From a virus, in IMG/VR virus record IMGVR_UViG_3300050020_000030, positions 1 through 64,000 of that record: 64,000 nucleotides of DNA, one strand, 5' to 3'. Position numbers and translations under genes: made by a program. The notes under the pieces are model-generated. The model worked only from the letters and a program-made list of their open reading frames with translations, did not search any database and was not told where the DNA came from. This document shows positions 2,143-25,034 of this stretch, one piece after another. The stretch's first letter is position 1, and each line of letters begins with the position of its first letter.

Positions 2143-2360
2143 ATTGTCCGGATTGTGGACGGGACCTAGAAAAGATTCCGGAGCAGTACCGGGATTTTGT
2201 ACACTCTATCCCCGGAAAATCGGACTGGTGCTTGCCTCCTGAAAAGTTCTCTCCGGAAGCAGAAGCTGCTCTAGATAAGCAGGCGGAAGCGTTAACAAAA
2301 CAATTTCGTAAGACCCTAGAGGAGGTACTAAATGGTAACATGGTCATATCGTTGGGATGA
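2139..2360 (+). CDS. small zinc-ribbon protein, paralogue of the preceding gene
   Basis: 73 residues starting MNCPDCGRDL, like the preceding protein. It has one N-terminal CxxC and a distal cysteine (SDWC), then a helical tail. It overlaps the next gene by 29 bases, which is more than usual here. Function unknown. Confidence 0.6.
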   Translation: MNCPDCGRDLEKIPEQYRDFVHSIPGKSDWCLPPEKFSPEAEAALDKQAEALTKQFRKTLEEVLNGNMVISLG

Positions 2361-2649
2361 ATCGAAGAAAGGATGGACCCTTCATCGTAGGGTTGACCAG
2401 AAATATCTGGCCCGGACAGGATTTACTTGGCGCGGGCCGAGTTTGTGGTATAATAAACCTATTGGGCCAATCACCCAGTTTAACCACATTCTTAGAGAGA
2501 CGTTGTTGACGAACTACTATTCAAATTCCTTTTTTAGTAAGTCACCGTTTCTTGGCGGGATGAGGATGTGTCTTCCAGTTCATTCGGGAAAGACGATCCA
2601 GTTCTTTACCTACGGCCTGAAGGAGAAAAATGAAACCCACAGTTCCTGA
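2332..2649 (+). CDS. early protein with a C-terminal major-capsid-protein fragment
   Basis: 105 residues. The first 49 or so are unique and rich in W, R and K. Residues 71-96 align with residues 35-61 of this phage's own major capsid protein (22867-25034). Shared are PFLG, then LPxHSG, then IQFFxYxL with one gap, at more than half identical positions. The similarity stops shortly before the C-terminus. GGAGGT lies 8 bases before the ATG. The corresponding capsid segment is the N-terminal arm region before the first intron. It is one of three early proteins with virion-protein fragments (see 4975 and 5842). What it does is unknown; assembly interference or a decoy role is inference. Confidence 0.7.
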   Translation: MVTWSYRWDESKKGWTLHRRVDQKYLARTGFTWRGPSLWYNKPIGPITQFNHILRETLLTNYYSNSFFSKSPFLGGMRMCLPVHSGKTIQFFTYGLKEKNETHSS

Positions 2650-2896
2650 AGTTCTACCGCTTGTCTGGGACCTATATGATAGAAGTCTGGACGGGTGCTG
2701 CCTGCATATCGTTCTGGACGACGGAAACGTAGATGATGCTTCTGTAAAGTTCTGTATGCGATACGCAGAGGAGATGGTCCACTGGGAGTGCCTATGTCTA
2801 GCTGAAACTTTGCTGCACATGAGTAAAACCCAAAGGACTCAGCTATCTAGCCGAGCCTACGAAAGGCAGCATCTGAGATACCACGGAGGAGCCTAA
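2630..2896 (+). CDS. hypothetical early protein
   Basis: 88 residues with GGAGAAAA before the ATG, overlapping the preceding gene by 20 bases. Cysteine-containing (GCCLHI, ECLCL) and histidine-rich near the end, but without a regular zinc-binding spacing. No family recognised. Confidence 0.6.
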   Translation: MKPTVPEVLPLVWDLYDRSLDGCCLHIVLDDGNVDDASVKFCMRYAEEMVHWECLCLAETLLHMSKTQRTQLSSRAYERQHLRYHGGA

Positions 2897-3339
2897 TGGA
2901 AGAAACACGAAACAGTAAGCACTGGCTGGTAAGCCCACCACCGCCCGGAATCCTGATCTCGGTGTTTGATACTCGGGATAATCGCGGGTGGCGCGTCATG
3001 TATCCGGAAGAAATTTCAGCCCGCCTCCCGGAGTATCTTTACTGGAGGGTCACTGGAGTAGGAGAAGAAATGGATCACCCAGCCGTGCCTAATGCCGCTG
3101 CGTACTATATTCTCAAGGTCAAGGACTACGGGGATGTGGTCTTCTACGGTACTGAAGTTGAGGCGGAAGACCTAAAGATGACTTGGGAACTCCGGAGCAA
3201 GAGTAGCGTCTTCCTCAAGAAGGCTACTAAGAGTGATCCTAAACACAAGAAGCTGGTATCGGACGAGATCGAAGCTATCCGGTTGGATCGGTCGTTTGGA
3301 ATCCAGATTCCCCCGGTTCAGACAGATGGGTGGTTCTAA
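2896..3339 (+). CDS. hypothetical early protein
   Basis: 147 residues preceded by GGAGGAG. It looks like a compact alpha/beta protein: beta strands around ILISVFDTRD and YYILKVKDYGDVVFYG, then a basic segment (residues 108-125) and a proline-containing tail. No family recognised. It follows the previous gene by a one-base overlap (TAATG type). Confidence 0.65.
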   Translation: MEETRNSKHWLVSPPPPGILISVFDTRDNRGWRVMYPEEISARLPEYLYWRVTGVGEEMDHPAVPNAAAYYILKVKDYGDVVFYGTEVEAEDLKMTWELRSKSSVFLKKATKSDPKHKKLVSDEIEAIRLDRSFGIQIPPVQTDGWF

Positions 3340-3518
3340 TGCTTACTGAGGAAAGACTCAAAGAAATTTTGGATTACAAGGGCCGCAATCTTGGGGTGTT
3401 TCCCAAGTGTTGTCCTTGGTCGATAGCTACCTACAAAGAAATACTGTCTCTTGCCCAAGAGGTCTTCTGCTGGAGAAACATACAGGATTGGGAAGAGAAG
3501 TACGGGGGAACTAAATGA
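3339..3518 (+). CDS. small early protein, unknown
   Basis: 59 residues. The ATG at 3339 overlaps the previous stop by one base (TAATG), which is preferred over the GTG at 3330. Two cysteines (KCCPW) but no zinc motif. The stop overlaps the next ATG. Confidence 0.6.
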   Translation: MLTEERLKEILDYKGRNLGVFPKCCPWSIATYKEILSLAQEVFCWRNIQDWEEKYGGTK

Positions 3519-3694
3519 AATTCGGTAAAAGTTTTCAAGACGGGGTACTAGAGAATCTCCTCTTCCACCAAGAGCAGGACGCCGTGGCCCACAACAAGAA
3601 GTGGGATAGGATAGCTTTCTGGGGATTTATCTTTGCATGGGCTATGCTTTTTGCTGGGGTAATATGGAGCGATCTAGCAAGAGGAGTCTTATGA
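3515..3694 (+). CDS. small single-span membrane protein
   Basis: 59 residues. A soluble, charged N-terminal half (through NKKWDR, residues 27-32) is followed by one strongly hydrophobic segment at about residues 33-51 (AFWGFIFAWAMLFAGVIW) and a short basic end. It overlaps both neighbours by 4 bases. A small inner-membrane protein of the early operon; superinfection exclusion or host takeover roles are possible but not shown. Confidence 0.65.
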   Translation: MKFGKSFQDGVLENLLFHQEQDAVAHNKKWDRIAFWGFIFAWAMLFAGVIWSDLARGVL

Positions 3695-4023
3695 GTCAGT
3701 TACTGTTTTCTTTAACTTCGAAGGACTTTGTGTTTCAGACTTTTTGTACCGGGGGTAATGGAGGCCAGCATCGTAATGCTAAGCAGAACGGGGTTCGGTG
3801 TATACATCCTCCTTCTGGAGCGAGGGCGGAGCATAGGGACGGTCGGGACCAGCCTAAGAATAGACAGGAGGCATTTCGGAAGTGCTGCGAAACTCCGGAG
3901 TTCAAGGCTTGGCACCGGACGGAAGTTTTTCGGCGTCTTGGCAAGACAAAAGATATAGAACGGATTGTAGATGAGCAGATGGACTCTAAAAACATAAAGG
4001 TGGAATACTATGAGTCTTTATAA
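3691..4023 (+). CDS. GGQ peptide-release-factor-like protein
   Basis: 110 residues from ATG 3691, which sits behind AAGAGGAG and overlaps the previous stop. The core GGNGGQHRNAKQNG is the catalytic GGQ loop of class I release factors and the ArfB/ICT1/PrfH-type peptidyl-tRNA hydrolases. It is followed by the family's VRCIHPPSGA strand, a DGRDQPKNRQEA segment and a basic helix. Domain 2/4 codon-recognition parts are absent, so it should act on stalled ribosomes or without stop-codon reading, hydrolysing peptidyl-tRNA. The C-terminal tail is shorter and less basic than that of ArfB. A reading-frame start upstream (3637) lacks a ribosome-binding site. Confidence 0.8.
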   Translation: MSQLLFSLTSKDFVFQTFCTGGNGGQHRNAKQNGVRCIHPPSGARAEHRDGRDQPKNRQEAFRKCCETPEFKAWHRTEVFRRLGKTKDIERIVDEQMDSKNIKVEYYESL

Positions 4024-4267
4024 AGAAGGCATACACATGATGTTGCCAAGCGAGGACGAGTCTATCCGCAGGCAGGCCGCGCAGTATTTTCACTACATGT
4101 ACGCGGATCAGGAGACTCTTACCTTCGGGCAGGCTATTGAAGCCTTGGTAATCCTCAACAAGGCTCTTACTGAACGGCTCAGAGCGTATGAGAAGGCGGA
4201 ACTAGATCGGGCGATGCTCTCCGTTTCTCCCGTATACATCACGGATGATCCACTCGCAAAAAGATGA
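4010..4267 (+). CDS. hypothetical early protein
   Basis: 85 residues, all-helical in appearance with acidic and basic stretches (ALTERLRAYEKAELDRAM). It overlaps the release-factor-like gene by 14 bases. No family recognised. Confidence 0.55.
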   Translation: MSLYKEGIHMMLPSEDESIRRQAAQYFHYMYADQETLTFGQAIEALVILNKALTERLRAYEKAELDRAMLSVSPVYITDDPLAKR

Positions 4268-4494
4268 ATACTATAAAGCGACGTGTAACTCTAAGGGTTT
4301 GTATGTTTTGCGGGCACCGATGGCGGTACAAGAAATGCCTTCGGGTCCGGTGCCCGGAGTGCCGGAAGAACCAGACTGAAAAAATACAAAAAGTAAAAAA
4401 GATGACACCAGTTCCGGAAACTGGAAACCAGACGCTCGAAAATATTCGAAAAGAATTTCTCCAGAAATACCTTGACAAGGATAAGGACTTGTGA
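4264..4494 (+). CDS. small basic zinc-ribbon protein
   Basis: 76 residues with CMFCGH near residue 13 and CPEC near residue 30, separated by a very basic stretch, then a lysine-rich linker and a C-terminal helix. Probably a nucleic-acid-binding zinc ribbon. The promoter for the next gene lies inside its 3' end. Confidence 0.65.
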   Translation: MNTIKRRVTLRVCMFCGHRWRYKKCLRVRCPECRKNQTEKIQKVKKMTPVPETGNQTLENIRKEFLQKYLDKDKDL

Positions 4495-4500
4495 TATAAT
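4472..4500 (+). promoter_or_regulatory. sigma70 promoter
   Basis: TTGACA at 4472-4477 and TATAAT at 4495-4500 with a 17-base spacer and an extended -10 (TTGTGATATAAT). It lies within the end of the previous gene and would start transcription near 4507, just upstream of the exported-protein gene at 4523. Confidence 0.85.
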
Positions 4501-4522
4501 GTACTTAGACTGGAAAAAAGGG

Positions 4523-4753
4523 ATGATACTTCTAGTTCTCGGGATGGCTTCTGCACAGAGTTCCTTACCTCCTGAGACCTTTCAGTCTGAACTGTTTTTG
4601 TCCTCGGTACAATGTCATATCAGAGATGGCGTTGTCTATAACTGTAGGTTGAACAAGGATAAGAAGCTAGACGACGCTGTACAAGAGCTATACGATCTAT
4701 ATCAATCGAGTCTAGACTCCGGGGATGGTCCAGACGAAAGTGCGCCCGAATGA
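4523..4753 (+). CDS. small exported protein, paralogue of the late gene at 35338
   Basis: 76 residues from ATG 4523 (GGG ribosome-binding site, downstream of the promoter ending at 4500). Residues 1-12 form a short hydrophobic signal peptide (MILLVLGMASAQS) with an apparent cut after A-S-A. The mature part matches the product of 35338-35601: a pattern Cx(I)xDG...xxCxxxxxxxLDDxxxxxxDxY is shared. So one early and one late copy of the same exported protein exist. Both mature forms have two cysteines that could form a disulfide in the periplasm. Function unknown. Confidence 0.65.
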   Translation: MILLVLGMASAQSSLPPETFQSELFLSSVQCHIRDGVVYNCRLNKDKKLDDAVQELYDLYQSSLDSGDGPDESAPE

Positions 4754-4965
4754 TTACCTGCCTTGAGTGCCTAACCCGAGAAGCCTGCCCCGGCTACAGC
4801 CACTGTAAGCAGTGTGAGGGCGCGGGTATTACAGGCGTCGTTCGGTTTGATACTACGGCGCTTTCCAGAGGACTTCGGGAGGAGTTTGATAAATTCGATA
4901 AGCGAATCTACGACCTTGAAGTAGCTCTTGGCCTACGTCAAGGCGTGAACAATAACGAGGGATAA
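4750..4965 (+). CDS. small zinc-binding protein
   Basis: 71 residues. Cysteines at CLEC, EAC, HCKQC within the first 25 residues suggest a zinc site; the rest is a charged helix (REEFDKFDKRIYDLEVAL). It overlaps the exported-protein gene by 4 bases. Confidence 0.6.
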   Translation: MITCLECLTREACPGYSHCKQCEGAGITGVVRFDTTALSRGLREEFDKFDKRIYDLEVALGLRQGVNNNEG

Positions 4966-4974
4966 AAGGAGAAT

Positions 4975-5220
4975 ATGAAATATTCAAGAGAACAATACGA
5001 GCGGGCAGCAAAGTACTATGATACCTATTTCTCTAGGGGTGGTTTTTATTCTGATCCGGATAGGTGGGTAAAACTGTATGAAGAGGTTGGAAACGGGAGA
5101 AGTACTGACACAGAATTACAAGCAAAACTATTCGTAGAAGGTCTATACGGAGGACCTGCTTTCTCTCTTGGACACAGTAACATTGCTCGTACTGCGACTG
5201 GACTGGGGCGGGTTTTATAA
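4975..5220 (+). CDS. early protein ending in a portal-protein fragment
   Basis: 81 residues behind AAAGGAG. Residues 1-62 are unique (tyrosine-rich, acidic). Residues 66-76, GHSNIARTATG, are identical to portal residues 464-474 encoded at 15001-15033. Over those 33 bases the two copies differ at four positions, and every difference is a silent third-position change. The similarity starts and ends abruptly, with five extra residues before the stop. This is the second of three early proteins carrying pieces of virion proteins. A single small recombination event followed by selection on the protein sequence would explain it; the biological role is unknown. Confidence 0.7.
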   Translation: MKYSREQYERAAKYYDTYFSRGGFYSDPDRWVKLYEEVGNGRSTDTELQAKLFVEGLYGGPAFSLGHSNIARTATGLGRVL

Positions 5221-5239
5221 TTTCCAAATGAGGGATAAA

Positions 5240-5446
5240 ATGATATCTTGTGTTTTCAACTTTCCCCTACCCGAAACTCAAGAGGCTATCGACTTCTTGG
5301 TCGTTGAGACTCGTCATGCCGTTCAAAAAGCCCAAGTGGACAACCCGGAGCTTCTAAAGCCCGGAGTGTTTTTTGTAACGATCTCCGCAGGAGATGTTGG
5401 TGTAACCACGGAGGAAGATAAATTTGAGTACCACCCGGAGGGATAG
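5240..5446 (+). CDS. hypothetical early protein
   Basis: 68 residues. ATG 5240 is chosen because GAGGGA lies 5 bases upstream; the upstream in-frame ATGs lack one. It reads as a small alpha/beta protein (VFNFPLP, a long helix, then VFFVTISAG) and could be a ferredoxin-like or dNTP-related fold, but no family is recognised. Confidence 0.55.
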   Translation: MISCVFNFPLPETQEAIDFLVVETRHAVQKAQVDNPELLKPGVFFVTISAGDVGVTTEEDKFEYHPEG

Positions 5447-5826
5447 TGACTCAGGTAAGAGGGTTTAAGCCTTCGGCAAAGTACCAAAGGCTATACAATA
5501 GGTACAACAAATTGTACTTCTCGGGGGAGCTACCACCATGTATAGTGGGTGCTGCGCCTTTGCTAAAGATTGAATACGTCGAGAACAAAGTTTTTGGAAA
5601 GTCTAAAAAAGTGTCAGGAGGGGAATATGCCTTGCTATGCTGGGAAGATGATCAGTCCTATATTATCCTAGATAAAGGAACTACTGTTTTTCATATAGTG
5701 ATCGCAAAGCAGTCGGTTCTTCACGAGCAAATTCATCTATACTTGGGAACACGAGGCCACGGTAAAGAATTCAAGGACCAGATCAGAAGGATCGCTGCTC
5801 TAGGCGCGTTGGATACCCTAATCTAG
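5446..5826 (+). CDS. SprT-like zinc metalloprotease domain protein
   Basis: 126 residues starting at GTG 5446, overlapping the previous stop. The order is a helix with YNRYNKLYFSGELP, a beta hairpin, then LHEQIH (about residues 92-97) and HGKEFKDQIRRI. This is the SprT pattern: HExxH with a third zinc-binding histidine about 20 residues later. SprT-like proteins (Spartan, SprT) cleave proteins attached to DNA. Only the protease domain is present; the C-terminal zinc ribbon of bacterial SprT is missing. It stands beside the early zinc-ribbon genes. Protease activity on DNA-bound or host proteins is inference. Confidence 0.75.
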   Translation: MTQVRGFKPSAKYQRLYNRYNKLYFSGELPPCIVGAAPLLKIEYVENKVFGKSKKVSGGEYALLCWEDDQSYIILDKGTTVFHIVIAKQSVLHEQIHLYLGTRGHGKEFKDQIRRIAALGALDTLI

Positions 5827-5841
5827 AAGGAAAAGGAAACT

Positions 5842-6219
5842 ATGTATACACTCAGTTTGGTACACAATACGGCCTTCCCCGAACCGGGAGAATTTTTCAA
5901 CAACACTAAGAATGGCGGGGTTCTAACAATGTCTCGTCTTCGTCGAGAAGTCTTGCGGGCGAGTGTCGAAGGTCTGGAAACTTTCGAGGATAAAAAGTAT
6001 CGGGGCTGGATTCATCCCTATGTCCTGCACGACGTTCTTAATGATGCCTCCTTTAACGGATTAACAGATATTATAGCACGCGGAGAGAAGAAAGACAAAG
6101 CATTTGTATCAATAACTCTTGCGGGAGTTGAGTTTATTTCAACGACAGACGTTCGGGTCTCTACCTTTATCTTCGGTAAAAACTCTGATCCCCTCGATCT
6201 TAAACTTATCTACATCTAA
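5842..6219 (+). CDS. early protein made of a central major-capsid-protein segment
   Basis: 125 residues. Residues 1-27 are unique. From residue 28 (LTxSxLR) to about 120 the protein follows residues 156-262 of the phage's major capsid protein, including HDVLNDASFNGLTDI against HDIYNDASFNGLTDI in the capsid. Over residues 49-78 the two share 20 of 30 positions. A seven- to nine-residue loop of the capsid is missing, and the copy ends where the capsid continues to its last 65 residues. So this is a domain-sized capsid piece rather than a complete capsid paralogue, with a good ribosome-binding site (AGAAGGAAAAGGAAA) and an intact frame. It could co-assemble into or block capsids; not tested. Confidence 0.75.
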   Translation: MYTLSLVHNTAFPEPGEFFNNTKNGGVLTMSRLRREVLRASVEGLETFEDKKYRGWIHPYVLHDVLNDASFNGLTDIIARGEKKDKAFVSITLAGVEFISTTDVRVSTFIFGKNSDPLDLKLIYI

Positions 6220-6260: not shown

Positions 6261-6290
6261 TTACTATTCTGGCCGGATTTGTGGTATAAT
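6261..6290 (+). promoter_or_regulatory. extended -10 promoter of the first virion operon
   Basis: TATAAT at 6285-6290 within TTTGTGGTATAAT, the extended -10 used across this phage; the -35 (TTACTA at 6261-6266, 18-base spacer) is weak. It would start transcription near 6297, directly before the folded leader. Confidence 0.65.
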
Positions 6291-6630
6291 AGTACTAGTG
6301 ACAAAAATGTTTATAGGGGGAGAAGCCTCCCGTAGAAGGCTCAAATCCTCCCCCATCGATTTAAGTTACCGGAAATATCCGGCTACCCTGCCTCGGGGGT
6401 TTGTACTGAGGCACTTTTTGATTCAGGTAATACCTGACCACGCGGTTGTTGGAACCGCATCTGAGCAGATGGCGCTGGAGTAACATACTACCCAGGTATC
6501 TGCTCAACAATTTGATTCCGGAAAATGGAATCTGCCAAGCCGCACGTCCGGAGCAACTCCGGGGGATCGGTTGCATTGCAACGGAGGAGGTCGCTCCTCC
6601 TCTATCTCTTTTCGAAAAGGAATAAATCTT
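6291..6630 (+). ncRNA. densely structured leader or small RNA upstream of the virion gene at 6631
   Basis: This 340-base gap holds at least nine stem-loops. They are GGGGGAG/CTCCCCC (6316-6354) with an inner AGCCT/AGGCT, CCGG/CCGG (6369-6382), TGCCTC/GAGGCA (6389-6413) followed by cTTTTT, CAGGT/ACCTG (6424-6436), GCGGTT/AACCGC (6442-6458), ATCTG/CAGAT (6459-6470), GATTCC/GGAATC (6514-6532), CCGGAG/CTCCGG (6548-6562), and a GGAGGA/TCCTCC stem (about 6583-6600). GAGCAGAT (6463-6470) can alternatively pair with ATCTGCTC (6498-6505), so two exclusive folds exist. The ribosome-binding site AAGGA lies in a CTTTTCGAAAAG palindrome. Short ORFs here are not convincing. A leader regulating the next gene, an antiterminator RNA or a free small RNA are all possible. 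Confidence 0.6.
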
Positions 6631-13611: not shown

Positions 13612-15693
13612 ATGTCTCAGATCGATCCAGCAAACACGCTAGCAGATACACTAACTGAAGAGCAGATCGCCCAAATTCTCCAAACAGGGAAGTGGGCACC
13701 TGACCCTGCTCTTACTCTAGTGCTCCGGGATACCGATAGTGCCGAAACCGCGAAGGCGGCTAAGCAGTGGATCGCGGGGTGGAATTCTGCTAGCATTCTG
13801 TACCAGTCTACGACTACTCCTAAATTTTGGGAAGGCACACAAGTAGAACGGGCTAATGTTCCCTTCTACACCGTGGCTAAAGTTGTGAACTCATTGACGC
13901 CTCAAATTGTCAATGGGCTTTTTTATGACGATCCTCCTTTCATTTTTCAGCCTCGTCCGGGGACAAGTCAAGATACTGTAGAAGCCGTAGCAGATATCAT
14001 TGGATACCAACTCAAAGAAATTGGGTTCAAAGAACAAGTCCGTCTCGGAGTAATGAACGTAGTTCTTTACGGAACGAACATCTGGAAGTGGGGATGGGAC
14101 AGTAAGAAGATTTCTCGTACATACTTCGCCTTGGACGAAAAGAAGGATACTATTCCTTCGGAAATTCCGGGCCAGCCTGATGTAGAATTCCACGATCCGA
14201 ACGCCCCACTAGTTGAAAGAACCGAAGAAATCCGCGTTGAGCAGCCCCGGTTCGAAAATATCACGTCTATCCGAGACGTTTTGGTTGATCCTACGCTTCG
14301 GGTACCCGATATTACCAAGGGAAAGTTTGTAATCCACAGGCTGTATCTCACTTATAATGAGCTAATTGCCCTCAAAGATACCCCCGGATACGACATTCCA
14401 AGCGAGCAAGAAGTCATTTCTTGGTTCACACCCCCGGAAGAAACTGCCCTTCCGGATATGGATGAACGTACCGGAATCAGCCCAATGTGGGATATGCGGG
14501 CCGATCCGAGGTGGGAAAAGGCTACAATTGATCCATTTAATCAGCCTTTAGAGGTTTTAGAGCGTTGGGACAAAGAAAAAGTCATAATCGTAGTCCAGCG
14601 CAAGAAAGTTATCTGTAACGGAAAGAATCCTTACTCCGAAATTCCCTTCCTTTCCTGTAATTTTTGGGATGTACCCGGAGCGTTTTACGGCCTCGGCGTG
14701 GGTCGGACGGTTGGTTCTGAGCAGCGTTTGCAGATGGGAATCGTCAATACTTGGCTTGATTCCGTCGCTCTCTCCCTCTCTGGTGTATACGTTAGGAAGC
14801 GTACCAATAGTATTCCTACCCAGAGTATCCGGATTTCACCGGGCAGGGTTGTTGAACTAGAGAATGTAGAAGACCTGAAGCCTCTCGCCCGTCCTCCGGC
14901 TGTCCCGGAAGCGGCGGAGCACCTCGGAATGTCCGCGAGTCGTGTAGAGCAGAACTCTGGTGCCGGTGAAATATCTTCACAGGGTCAAGCGGGGTCTTCA
15001 GGACATAGTAACATCGCTCGTACCGCGACCGGAGCGGCGGGGCTTCTCCAAGGGCAAGGTATTGGAATCTCAGACCTCGTTGAAAAGTTTTCGTGCAACG
15101 TATTCCTTCCCTTCCTTTACCGCGTGATGGAGATGAACAGAAATCTCCTCCCGGCAGAGACAATTAAAAGAATCTTGAATGATGAACTCCAGAAGGCTTA
15201 TCTCGCAGAAGGCACAGGAACTATTGAAGACATCCGTAAGGCCCGGATGGAGATCGAGATTCAGGCCGGGGCTAAACTCGCAGATCGTAGGGCGGTAAGC
15301 GCGAGTCTTCCCCTCCTAACCTCGTATCTCGGACAGCAGTTTGTTGTTCAAAACCTCGCTACGCAGGGACTCAAAGTAGATCAGAAGATGGTCGTTAAGA
15401 CGATCTTTGAAGCTGCTGGATTCAAGAGCTTCTATAGTCTGATTGTTCCAATGACCGATCAGGAAAAACAGCAGTCGCAAGCTAACTCTCCCGCCGCTAT
15501 GAACCAATCCAAGATTCAGGCAGAATCGCAGATGGCTCTCCAGAAATATCAGGCGCAGTCCCAGCTTAGGGATCAAGAGAATATAGCTAAGGCAGGTATG
15601 GAAGTACTCCGGAAAAATCTCGAAGCCACTAGTACCCCCGAGGCGATGACTGGTCAGGTTGGGGCGAACGAGGGATTCGGATCAAATTTATAA
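13612..15693 (+). CDS. portal protein
   Basis: 693 residues. The size, position after terminase, and architecture fit a podovirus-type portal. There is a helical start with VPFYTVAKVVNSLTPQIVNG, a wing region with WGWDSKK, and a stem/clip region (FLSCNFWDVPGAFYGLGVGR, near residue 350). The conserved GHSNIARTATG loop follows at residues 464-474, then a long glutamine/alanine-rich helical C-terminus that probably forms the barrel or is disordered. Twelve copies form the DNA channel and terminase docking ring. The GHSNIARTATG loop is copied in the early gene at 4975-5220. Confidence 0.85.
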   Translation: MSQIDPANTLADTLTEEQIAQILQTGKWAPDPALTLVLRDTDSAETAKAAKQWIAGWNSASILYQSTTTPKFWEGTQVERANVPFYTVAKVVNSLTPQIVNGLFYDDPPFIFQPRPGTSQDTVEAVADIIGYQLKEIGFKEQVRLGVMNVVLYGTNIWKWGWDSKKISRTYFALDEKKDTIPSEIPGQPDVEFHDPNAPLVERTEEIRVEQPRFENITSIRDVLVDPTLRVPDITKGKFVIHRLYLTYNELIALKDTPGYDIPSEQEVISWFTPPEETALPDMDERTGISPMWDMRADPRWEKATIDPFNQPLEVLERWDKEKVIIVVQRKKVICNGKNPYSEIPFLSCNFWDVPGAFYGLGVGRTVGSEQRLQMGIVNTWLDSVALSLSGVYVRKRTNSIPTQSIRISPGRVVELENVEDLKPLARPPAVPEAAEHLGMSASRVEQNSGAGEISSQGQAGSSGHSNIARTATGAAGLLQGQGIGISDLVEKFSCNVFLPFLYRVMEMNRNLLPAETIKRILNDELQKAYLAEGTGTIEDIRKARMEIEIQAGAKLADRRAVSASLPLLTSYLGQQFVVQNLATQGLKVDQKMVVKTIFEAAGFKSFYSLIVPMTDQEKQQSQANSPAAMNQSKIQAESQMALQKYQAQSQLRDQENIAKAGMEVLRKNLEATSTPEAMTGQVGANEGFGSNL

Positions 15694-22866: not shown

Positions 22867-25034
22867 ATGGCCTATACTCCCGCAGTAAATACAGTTACCA
22901 GTGGTAACTTTCCTAACGCTTTGGCCGTTTACTATGAGCGTAAAGCAATTCCAAACCTTAAAGCAAGCACTCCGTTTCTGGGGGCAACAAAGCAGTGGCC
23001 TTTGCCGAGGCACTCCGGTAACGTGATTCAGTTCTTCTCCTATAACCTCTTGGGCGCGAATGTCTCTCAGACCACCGAGGGTTTCGTGGGTTCTCCTGTT
23101 CCCGAGAGCGCAGTCAAGATTCAGGCGACAATCGGTGAACTTGCTGCTTAACAGCTAACTGGCCGATATAAAATTCCGCTAAATCGGTGAACATCTGTGG
23201 TATAATGGTGTTATGCCAACAGAAAATACCGAGCTAACTCAAATGAAAGATCACACAAAAGCGTATATGGCCGGAGTCCTCGACGGAGACGGTCATCTAG
23301 GAATTCAGAAACACGGGCAGTATAGTCCTAGTATACAGGTTTGTGGTGAGTCTAAATCGCTTATGGAATGGATCGTCCTTAACTTTGGGGGATCAATCCG
23401 CAAAGAAAAAATCAAGAGCGGTAAAGACTTCTACAAATGGATACTCTACGGGAAGAATTCTCAAAAAGATTTCGTAGAAGGTATCACACCTTTTGTGTTC
23501 ATAAAAAGATCACAAGCAGAGATTCTCCAAGAGTTTCTTAATATCAATCGGAGTGACTACGATCCGGAAAAGAGAGAATCTTACTATCTAGCAATTAGGA
23601 AAGCTAGATCATTGAGCAGCGTAGAGACTGACATGCGGAACAAACTAGACAATAAACTGGCTTGCGCTTATGCGGCTGGTCTGGTTGATACAGACGGACA
23701 CATAAATTTATACACGGTTCCCTCGGGAAAGTCTAAAGGTAGCATACGAACAGGAATAGAAATCGTAAATATCTATAGACCTATTCTCGATGAGCTAGCA
23801 AGGCAGTTTGGGGGTCACGTAAGGAAAAGAACAGAAGACGGGTACAAGACTCGGTATCAGTGGTTCGTTACTGATATGAAATCCGAGGAAAAACTCCTTC
23901 TGGCGATGCTCCCTTATATGATTGTGAAGAGAGAAAAAGCAGAAAATCTTCTCAAGCACCTCCGAGAAAGACTTAGTTTGAAGATACAGCCCGAACTCAT
24001 AGGTGACTATGAGAGTGTCCCAGTGGGAACGCTGAAGACCTAAACACGTTTGCAATACGCTGATTACACCAATAGCTCTGACCTGTTCTTGGATACGGCG
24101 ATTGACGACAAGGGCGCACTTAGCTCTTTGGCCGAGGAAATGAACTATCGCCTCGCCCTCACCCTGAATCTGTTGGTCTCCACGGCTGCGGATTCTCTGA
24201 ATGGCATCGACGGTTCTGTGAATCAGCAGTTGGCAGTCGGTACCTATCTTACCGCGTCGAACCTGCGTACCATCGCTCAGCAGCTTGAGTCGGTGAACGT
24301 TCGTCCGTTCGAAGCCAACACCTACGCCGGGGTTATCAATCCTCTGGTTGTGCATGATATCTATAATGACGCCAGCTTCAACGGCCTCACGGATATCATG
24401 AAGCGCCAGTCCGATTCTTCGAAGAAGTTGTTCGAAGGTCTGGATCGTGACGCCCCTCTGGAGTTCGCGGGTATTAAGTTCAAGAGCACCACAACCGCAT
24501 CGGCTGTGACCATCTCTTCGAACATTTACTATCCCACGTACATCTTCGGTGACGATGCTCTTCTAAGTATCTTCCTCGGTCCTAATCCGGCTGACAAGAA
24601 CAAGAAGAACTACTCACTGAATATCCAGATGGCTCCCGAAGGCGGCTCGGTCTCCGACCCGGCTCGCTTGATTGGTGAACTTGCTGCTTAAGCAGCTAAT
24701 CGGCCAATCTAAAACTCAGCTATATCGGTGAACCTCTCCTAAAATTTTAGGAGACAATACCGAGGGAAGACTAGGGAAAGTACCTAAACCTAGAACCCGT
24801 AACGACTAATACGCTGGGCCTTCGAAAGAAGTGAAGATAGAGTCTGAGCTATACGGCGACGTATAGAGTGTCTCCGGGGTGATCCGGGGGTGGATTAAGT
24901 CCACGATGACCTGAAAAGGCATCTCCAAAACGCAACTGGGGTGGATTTCATATAACTGTAAGTTCGTGGTCACGCCTCCGCCCGGAGTAGTTATGAGGGC
25001 ACGCAAGCTCCTGAGCCAGACGTCTTCAAGCTAA
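22867..25034 (+). CDS. major capsid protein, three exons split by two group I introns
   Basis: Exons are 22867-23136, 24053-24676 and 24939-25034, giving 329 residues. Each junction falls between codons. Joined, they restore the conserved ATIG-QYADYTNSSD and RLIG-GWISYNCKF regions known from the HK97-fold, N4 gp56-like capsid family. Unspliced, the frame stops shortly after each 5' splice site (IGELAA and stop). Both 5' exons end in U, paired to G in the intron guide; both introns end in G. The third exon encodes the last 31 residues, ending QTSSS. Codon use is strongly biased as in other abundant virion genes. Pieces of residues 35-61 and 156-262 are copied in early genes 2332 and 5842. Splicing is predicted, not shown. 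Confidence 0.9.
23194..23223 (+). promoter_or_regulatory. P5 hairpin carrying promoter -10 and the endonuclease start codon
   Basis: TCTGTGGTATAA pairs with TTATGCC-ACAGA around a TGGTG loop, with one bulged A. The same bases contain an extended -10 (TGTGGTATAATG, TATAAT at 23201-23206) and the ATG at 23213. In full-length pre-mRNA the start codon is buried in the stem. A transcript starting near 23213 would lack the left arm and expose it. No good -35 is seen. Confidence 0.65.
23213..24043 (+). CDS. intron-encoded LAGLIDADG homing endonuclease
   Basis: 276 residues, monomeric two-motif type: YMAGVLDGDG at residues 18-27 and YAAGLVDTDG at 153-162. The aspartates D24 and about D159 are the metal-binding residues. 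Such enzymes cut intronless alleles at the intron insertion site and spread the intron by repair. The target should span the exon junction near capsid codons 86-96. The ORF lies wholly inside intron 1; its first codons form P4 and P5 strands, codons 138-143 form P7/P3, and codons 259-267 form P7'/P9. No Shine-Dalgarno sequence is positioned before the ATG, consistent with leaderless translation from the internal promoter. Confidence 0.9.
   Translation: MPTENTELTQMKDHTKAYMAGVLDGDGHLGIQKHGQYSPSIQVCGESKSLMEWIVLNFGGSIRKEKIKSGKDFYKWILYGKNSQKDFVEGITPFVFIKRSQAEILQEFLNINRSDYDPEKRESYYLAIRKARSLSSVETDMRNKLDNKLACAYAAGLVDTDGHINLYTVPSGKSKGSIRTGIEIVNIYRPILDELARQFGGHVRKRTEDGYKTRYQWFVTDMKSEEKLLLAMLPYMIVKREKAENLLKHLRERLSLKIQPELIGDYESVPVGTLKT
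24677..24938 (+). ncRNA. group I intron 2 of the capsid gene, compact and ORF-free
   Basis: 262 bases with a complete core. P1: exon GATTGGT (24670-24676) with GCCAATC (24703-24709), U-G at the splice site. P3: CTCAGC (24715-24720) with GCTGGG (24813-24818). P4: CGGT (24726-24729) with ACCG (24759-24762). P5: perfect CTCCTAAAA/TTTTAGGAG (24736-24753). P6: GGG/CCC (about 24764 and 24797). P7: GACT (24804-24807) with AGTC (24841-24844). P8: CTTC-GAAA-GAAG (24820-24831). P9: CTATAC/GTATAG (24849-24866). The last base is G 24938. Sequence near the 5' end (GAACTTGCTGCTTAA) and after P9 matches intron 1, so the two are siblings. Confidence 0.93.

Follow-up and report, generated by a model that had tools for sequence, protein, structure and literature searches.

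Capsid-derived restriction factors are known from retroelements: the domesticated Gag restriction factor of yeast, Ty1 p22, is a truncated Gag that acts as a trans-dominant inhibitor of particle assembly (PMC4599808, PMC10951436). A limited literature search found no phage equivalent made from a phage's own capsid or portal pieces, and no truncated-capsid inhibitor or decoy of a phage turned up in the limited library covered. Tab blocks the tail assembly of other phages and targets the tape measure protein (PMC10884400), and an intron-borne homing endonuclease contributes to competition between co-infecting phages (PMC11620839). On the host side, CapRel contacts the major capsid protein (MCP) at the P-domain sheet, the spine helix and the axial-domain loops (PMC9712102). 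Here we analyse three small genes, g2332, g4975 and g5842, in the first 64,000 nucleotides (the window) of the 88,639-base IMG/VR virus record IMGVR_UViG_3300050020_000030, which belongs to a soil phage. Each holds a segment homologous to one of the virus's own virion proteins, the MCP for g2332 and g5842 and the portal for g4975 (Table 1). Relatives are cited by our own handles beginning with G or L.

Sequence comparison confirmed that the likeness of these genes to the MCP and portal is real homology, and the first-pass annotation was thus right to see parts of the two main shell proteins in several small genes. In searches within the window, residues 69-105 of g2332 matched MCP exon 1 (42%, E value 5e-5), and the last 22 residues of g4975 matched portal residues 460-481 in open reading frame (ORF) numbering (15 of 22 identical, E value 4e-4). 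This portal loop is visible even in the DNA (43 bp, 84% identity, 5170-5212 versus 15001-15041). Residues 25-115 of g5842 matched the central, axial-domain region of the MCP (36-45%, E value 2e-14). Segment profiles run against 29,242 ORFs of the clade gave E values of 5.6e-5 for the g2332 fragment, 1.1e-4 for the g4975 fragment and below 1e-8 for the g5842 fragment, compared with a best value of 0.14 among reversed ORFs used as a control. Neither capsid-like gene is a full capsid protein; g2332 covers the MCP from residue 22 to 61-70 and g5842 spans about 151-260 of 329 residues. A recent duplication of the resident MCP was rejected as the source of g5842: its identity to the resident MCP, 38%, is not above that to other MCPs, and its branch is very long, at 1.9 substitutions per site. 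When all ORFs of the genome were compared with each other, only a dozen partial paralogies emerged, the three fragment-source pairs among them. The fragments sit in the reading frame of their source, and most of their ORFs have a good Shine-Dalgarno sequence. The true start of g2332 is open to doubt because a promoter-like motif lies inside the ORF, despite the strong Shine-Dalgarno sequence (AGAGGAGG) before its ATG.

The wider clade of the window virus was gathered from IMG/VR, and the three genes themselves are not conserved across it: besides MCP and portal genes, searches with them matched only G001. This is a second record of the window virus, 99.998% identical over the common part, which supplies about 18 kb joining both ends of the first record and has an identical cassette; a selection estimate from the pair was dropped, as the cassette holds no difference. 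The first-pass annotation had named a lack of conserved fragments in related phages, together with the absence of any phenotype, as evidence against its interpretation. Fragments do recur, and the MCP 22-61 segment occurs in two species. In L063, whose portal is 81% identical, the syntenic region flanked by the homologues of g2896 and g5446 has three ORFs, all inside 1.1 kb, that carry MCP segments 22-59, 292-314 and 66-103. The core GKTIQFFTY is common to g2332 and the first of these ORFs and is absent from all MCPs reconstructed from the clade. Across the whole of IMG/VR its codon pattern is present in three contigs, those of the window virus, of L063 and of a remote MCP of 37% identity, and K-T is therefore probably the ancestral state. 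Weaker single MCP segments occur in G003 (VKATVGQYSDYLD, E value 0.05), G023 (TEQGCVSDPARQ, 0.019) and G017 (NTYILADDGIFAA, 0.09), and a portal 551-600 segment occurs in G002 (5.6e-4); a portal match in G023 at 4550-4672 was discarded because it is weak and its reading frame is not gene-like. This recurrence suggests that the fragments may be used as imitation virion parts.

The choice of source proteins is narrow. Tiled profiles found about ten off-locus sense fragments for the MCP and two for the portal, whereas those of the terminase and six other conserved proteins gave no convincing off-locus sense-strand fragment, HNH-domain relatives aside; their remaining matches were at chance level or came from copies of the protein's own locus that were truncated or antisense. 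Too few homologues were available to profile DNA polymerase and three further proteins. Because the other profiled proteins gave no comparable fragments, the MCP and portal are singled out among those that could be profiled. A separate protein of 33-37 residues, with an MCP-like N-terminal motif and a lysine-rich tail, is encoded just downstream of the MCP in L006, G023, G003, G008 and G027, and G018 has an ORF that ends in the same motif. This related protein would fit a role in the phage's own virion, with the fragment proteins serving as minor capsid or assembly proteins that carry MCP docking motifs. Since the head gene block does not include the window genes, which also lack conservation in close relatives, we consider such a role very unlikely.

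Codon usage bears on the level at which the fragments are kept. About 21 of the 75 residues identical between the fragments and their own or nearest MCP share a codon, and between g2332 and L063 six of the nine codons of the GKTIQFFTY core differ, all silently. Because residues were retained while codons were nearly randomised, the pattern argues that the similarity has been maintained at the protein level, with the caveat that the same codon pattern would result if the segments had recently been captured from a remote MCP not yet sampled. The portal loop, in which 7 of 11 codons are identical, looks like the younger fragment.

Likeness at the protein level also counts against the fragments being DNA targets of homing endonucleases in the MCP gene. 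That gene is not a single ORF: it consists of three exons and two introns, the latter not mentioned in the first-pass annotation, and the MCP introns of relatives lie at about residues 22, 28, 36, 55, 90-92, 189, 249, 279 and 310. Several relatives (among G003, G007, G008, G011 and G027) have at least four, at many different sites, and the MCP gene of this clade is unusually intron-rich for a phage capsid gene. In intron 1 of the window the LAGLIDADG gene leaves only about 76 bases upstream and 9 downstream, and Rfam gave no core match, so that the catalytic core has either to overlap the ORF or to be absent. Known intron sites (about 22, 55, 90-92, 189, 249 and 298) fall within most of the MCP segments of the small genes, as expected if the fragments were footprints that introns and homing endonucleases had left at the DNA or RNA level, that is, copies of homing sites. 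However, DNA identity at these sites is only about 48-69% with differing codons, the sites are so numerous that by our estimate a short segment contains one by chance about half the time, and no portal seen has an intron at the loop. We regard this origin as the least probable of those considered, and a homing-site decoy was set aside as the principal explanation because the codons of shared residues mostly differ.

The explanation that we favour, and hold tentatively, is that the small proteins show MCP and portal contact motifs in trans. The conserved motifs would be contact surfaces, and the small proteins would bind the partners that these motifs bind in the virion, such as neighbouring MCP, scaffold or portal partners. 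Binding could then hold back or regulate the phage's own assembly, or poison that of co-infecting relatives, in a manner resembling the effect of p22 on Ty1. Homology, the shared reading frame, ribosome-binding sites in most cases, recurrence, the singling out of the MCP and portal, and residues kept while codons changed all speak, as far as sequence can, for this explanation. Poisoning of relatives is held the likelier outcome because the fragments are patchily distributed; a patchy, changing distribution would suit phage-phage conflict better than a housekeeping role. The many introns and endonuclease genes in the MCP also suggest strong competition at this gene in the clade (compare PMC11620839). 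Several points weigh against the idea of contact motifs in trans. In a purifying-selection test, retention at MCP-invariant positions did not significantly exceed that at variable ones (p 0.07-1), three supporting relatives (G003, G017 and G023) rest on E values of 0.02-0.09, and the corresponding regions of L053 and L055 are without any fragment. AlphaFold models of g5842 and of an intact MCP from a relative had predicted local distance difference test scores of 34 and 29, respectively, unusable for mapping contact surfaces. Further, a phage with assembly poisons must spare itself, and no antidote was identified. Sequence cannot separate poisoning rivals from tuning the phage's own assembly or blinding a sensor.

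Some of the same observations would fit simple gene birth, in which stretches of DNA from the MCP and portal genes were copied into a region of small genes that changes fast, and there served as raw material for ORFs with a function, if they have one, that has nothing to do with the virion. On this view homing endonucleases probably break the MCP locus often, consistent with the many MCP introns of the clade and with an insert in the portal of G002 and G027 at about residue 365. The patchy distribution with segments that differ between genomes, the long g5842 branch and the lack of significant excess retention of MCP-invariant residues point the same way. Gene birth explains less well why the fragments lie in the source frame of gene-like ORFs, even though random insertion would do as much in 1 of 6 cases, why cores were retained though codons were nearly randomised, and why tiled profiles found no reuse of other long genes. 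On balance we judge it somewhat unlikely, if a serious contender.

A third possibility is that the proteins act as decoys that occupy host sensors of newly made MCP or portal. Such sensors exist, in that CapRel binds the MCP and the Gol peptide of the MCP can activate Lit (PMC9712102), and variation in which segments are used would be in keeping with an arms race. However, a segment that binds a sensor could trigger rather than blind it, and no sensor has been identified for the host. The window genes have no match among the defence-related families of PADLOC, and a coiled-coil ORF of L063 reached only 14.8 bits. The portal loop is also far smaller than the portal fold. The first-pass annotation had named CapRel, Avs4 and Lit as sensors that might be deceived, and these fit poorly: the CapRel contacts differ from the N-terminal arm fragment, and the loop is only 22 residues. 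A loop of this length is unlikely to mimic the whole portal fold with respect to Avs4. We consider decoys improbable. What stood of the earlier interpretation is thus the fragment-bearing genes, and its decoy and weapon readings stay hypotheses.

Table 1. Positions of the fragment genes, their source genes and related features (window coordinates unless a handle is given; aa, amino acids).
Feature	Position	Strand	Basis or remark
g2332 (105 aa), MCP N-arm segment at C-terminus	2332..2649	+	Similarity searches; Shine-Dalgarno AGAGGAGG
Extended -10 promoter-like motif TGTGGTATAAT inside g2332	2444..2454	+	9 window matches within 1 mismatch, 0.72 expected
MCP-like segment YYSNSFF..LPVHSGKTIQFFTYGL (MCP 22-61)	2515..2619	+	Common to L063:1668-1784
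g4975 (81 aa), portal loop at its end	4975..5220	+	Similarity and profile searches
Portal-like segment GPAFSLGHSNIARTATGLGRVL	5152..5217	+	Protein, DNA and profile matches
g5842 (125 aa), shortened paralogue of MCP central region	5842..6219	+	Similarity search, alignment, tree
MCP-like segment (MCP about 151-260)	5911..6186	+	Similarity search and alignment
Portal gene, source family of the loop	13612..15693	+	Pfam SU10_portal 1.4e-21
MCP exon 1	22867..23136	+	Alignment with intact MCPs L057, L071, L004
MCP intron 1	23137..24052	+	No Rfam core match; start 85% identical over 67 bases to intron 2 start
LAGLIDADG homing endonuclease gene in intron 1	23213..24043	+	Promoter-like motif at 23196
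MCP exon 2	24053..24676	+	Alignment with intact MCPs
MCP intron 2, putative group I	24677..24938	+	RF00028 46.3 bits, E value 1.3e-8, below the gathering score of 50
MCP exon 3 (GWISYNCKF...TSSS)	24939..25033	+	Alignment with intact MCPs
33-37-residue MCP-motif/lysine-tail protein	L006:2450-2563; L025:1875-1982; L016:9826-9933; also G023, G027

The cassette formed by these genes and those between them opens a rightward run into the structural genes and adjoins a mainly leftward region. Its 'early' expression, asserted in the first-pass annotation, is thus putative. The promoter-like motif occurs at 2444, 4490, 6280, 15713, 23196, 25100, 28509, 36838 and 46524, always on the + strand. The cassette also includes a release-factor-like gene with an RF-1 domain (3637-4023), conserved in Tunturiibacter phage Tunturi_3 (PHROG 3122, 3.7e-21). 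After the motif at 6280 lies a non-coding tRNA-like hairpin (6280-6360), also found at L063:3330-3375 and L052:663-710, whose outer 7-bp stem stays paired despite changed sequence (GGGGGAG/CTCCCCC in the window, GGAAGAC/GTTTTCC in L063).

The named relatives of the window virus are remote. Tunturi_3 (PP885686), an Acidobacteriota phage with about 36% identity in the MCP and 31-33% in the portal, is a podovirus with a 97.6-kb genome (PMC11924767). Its gp111 (74402-74998, locus L042) is annotated as 'portal protein' and has no match to the Tunturi_3 portal, a probable misannotation. An MCP relative is also present in a metagenome-assembled genome named Candidatus Sulfotelmatobacter, in keeping with an Acidobacteriota host for the window virus. 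The intact MCP of L057 matched PHROG 1357, a major head protein (2.2e-13), and scored 30.7 bits against TIGR04387 (N4-gp56-like; E value 1.9e-7), short of the cut-off of 60; by these profiles it is a head protein, remote to the N4 family. A PDB sequence search for a solved homologue gave nothing usable. The portal gene of two relatives holds an in-frame intein-like insert at about residue 365 (L004:312-2564; G027:C1:35560-38664).

If the small genes do act on assembly, they would represent a simple class of peptides able to disturb the assembly of capsid or portal. Tiled profiles of a phage's virion proteins, run over the small ORFs of that phage, would then offer a way to find more of them. 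Should the small genes encode decoys instead, they would be pointers to unknown capsid sensors in Acidobacteriota.

None of Ty1 p22, Tab or CapRel and Gol-Lit is a family that takes in the fragment genes. Host sensing by CapRel and Gol-Lit shows that the MCP, or a peptide of it, can trigger defence, so that imitating the MCP could matter; these are host sensors, however, with contacts that differ from the N-arm fragment, and the available parts of that account describe no phage decoy made of MCP fragments (PMC9712102). The intron endonuclease system recalls the MCP of this clade, full of introns of which several carry endonuclease genes, but it acts on DNA (PMC11620839), whereas the window fragments are similar at the protein level. 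Tab is a proven phage-encoded block on the virion assembly of other phages; in the available parts of its description it is not presented as a fragment of a virion protein, and the phage that encodes it is temperate and has an antidote (PMC10884400). Ty1 p22 shares with the window genes homologous to the MCP that both are capsid-derived partial proteins. The window phage differs in having short segments in separate genes, fused to unrelated sequence, whose inhibitory action would be putative. It is a doubtful extension that a recurrent class of small phage genes, built on hyperconserved capsid and portal contact motifs, may supply trans-acting assembly poisons between related phages and so be the phage counterpart of Ty1 p22.
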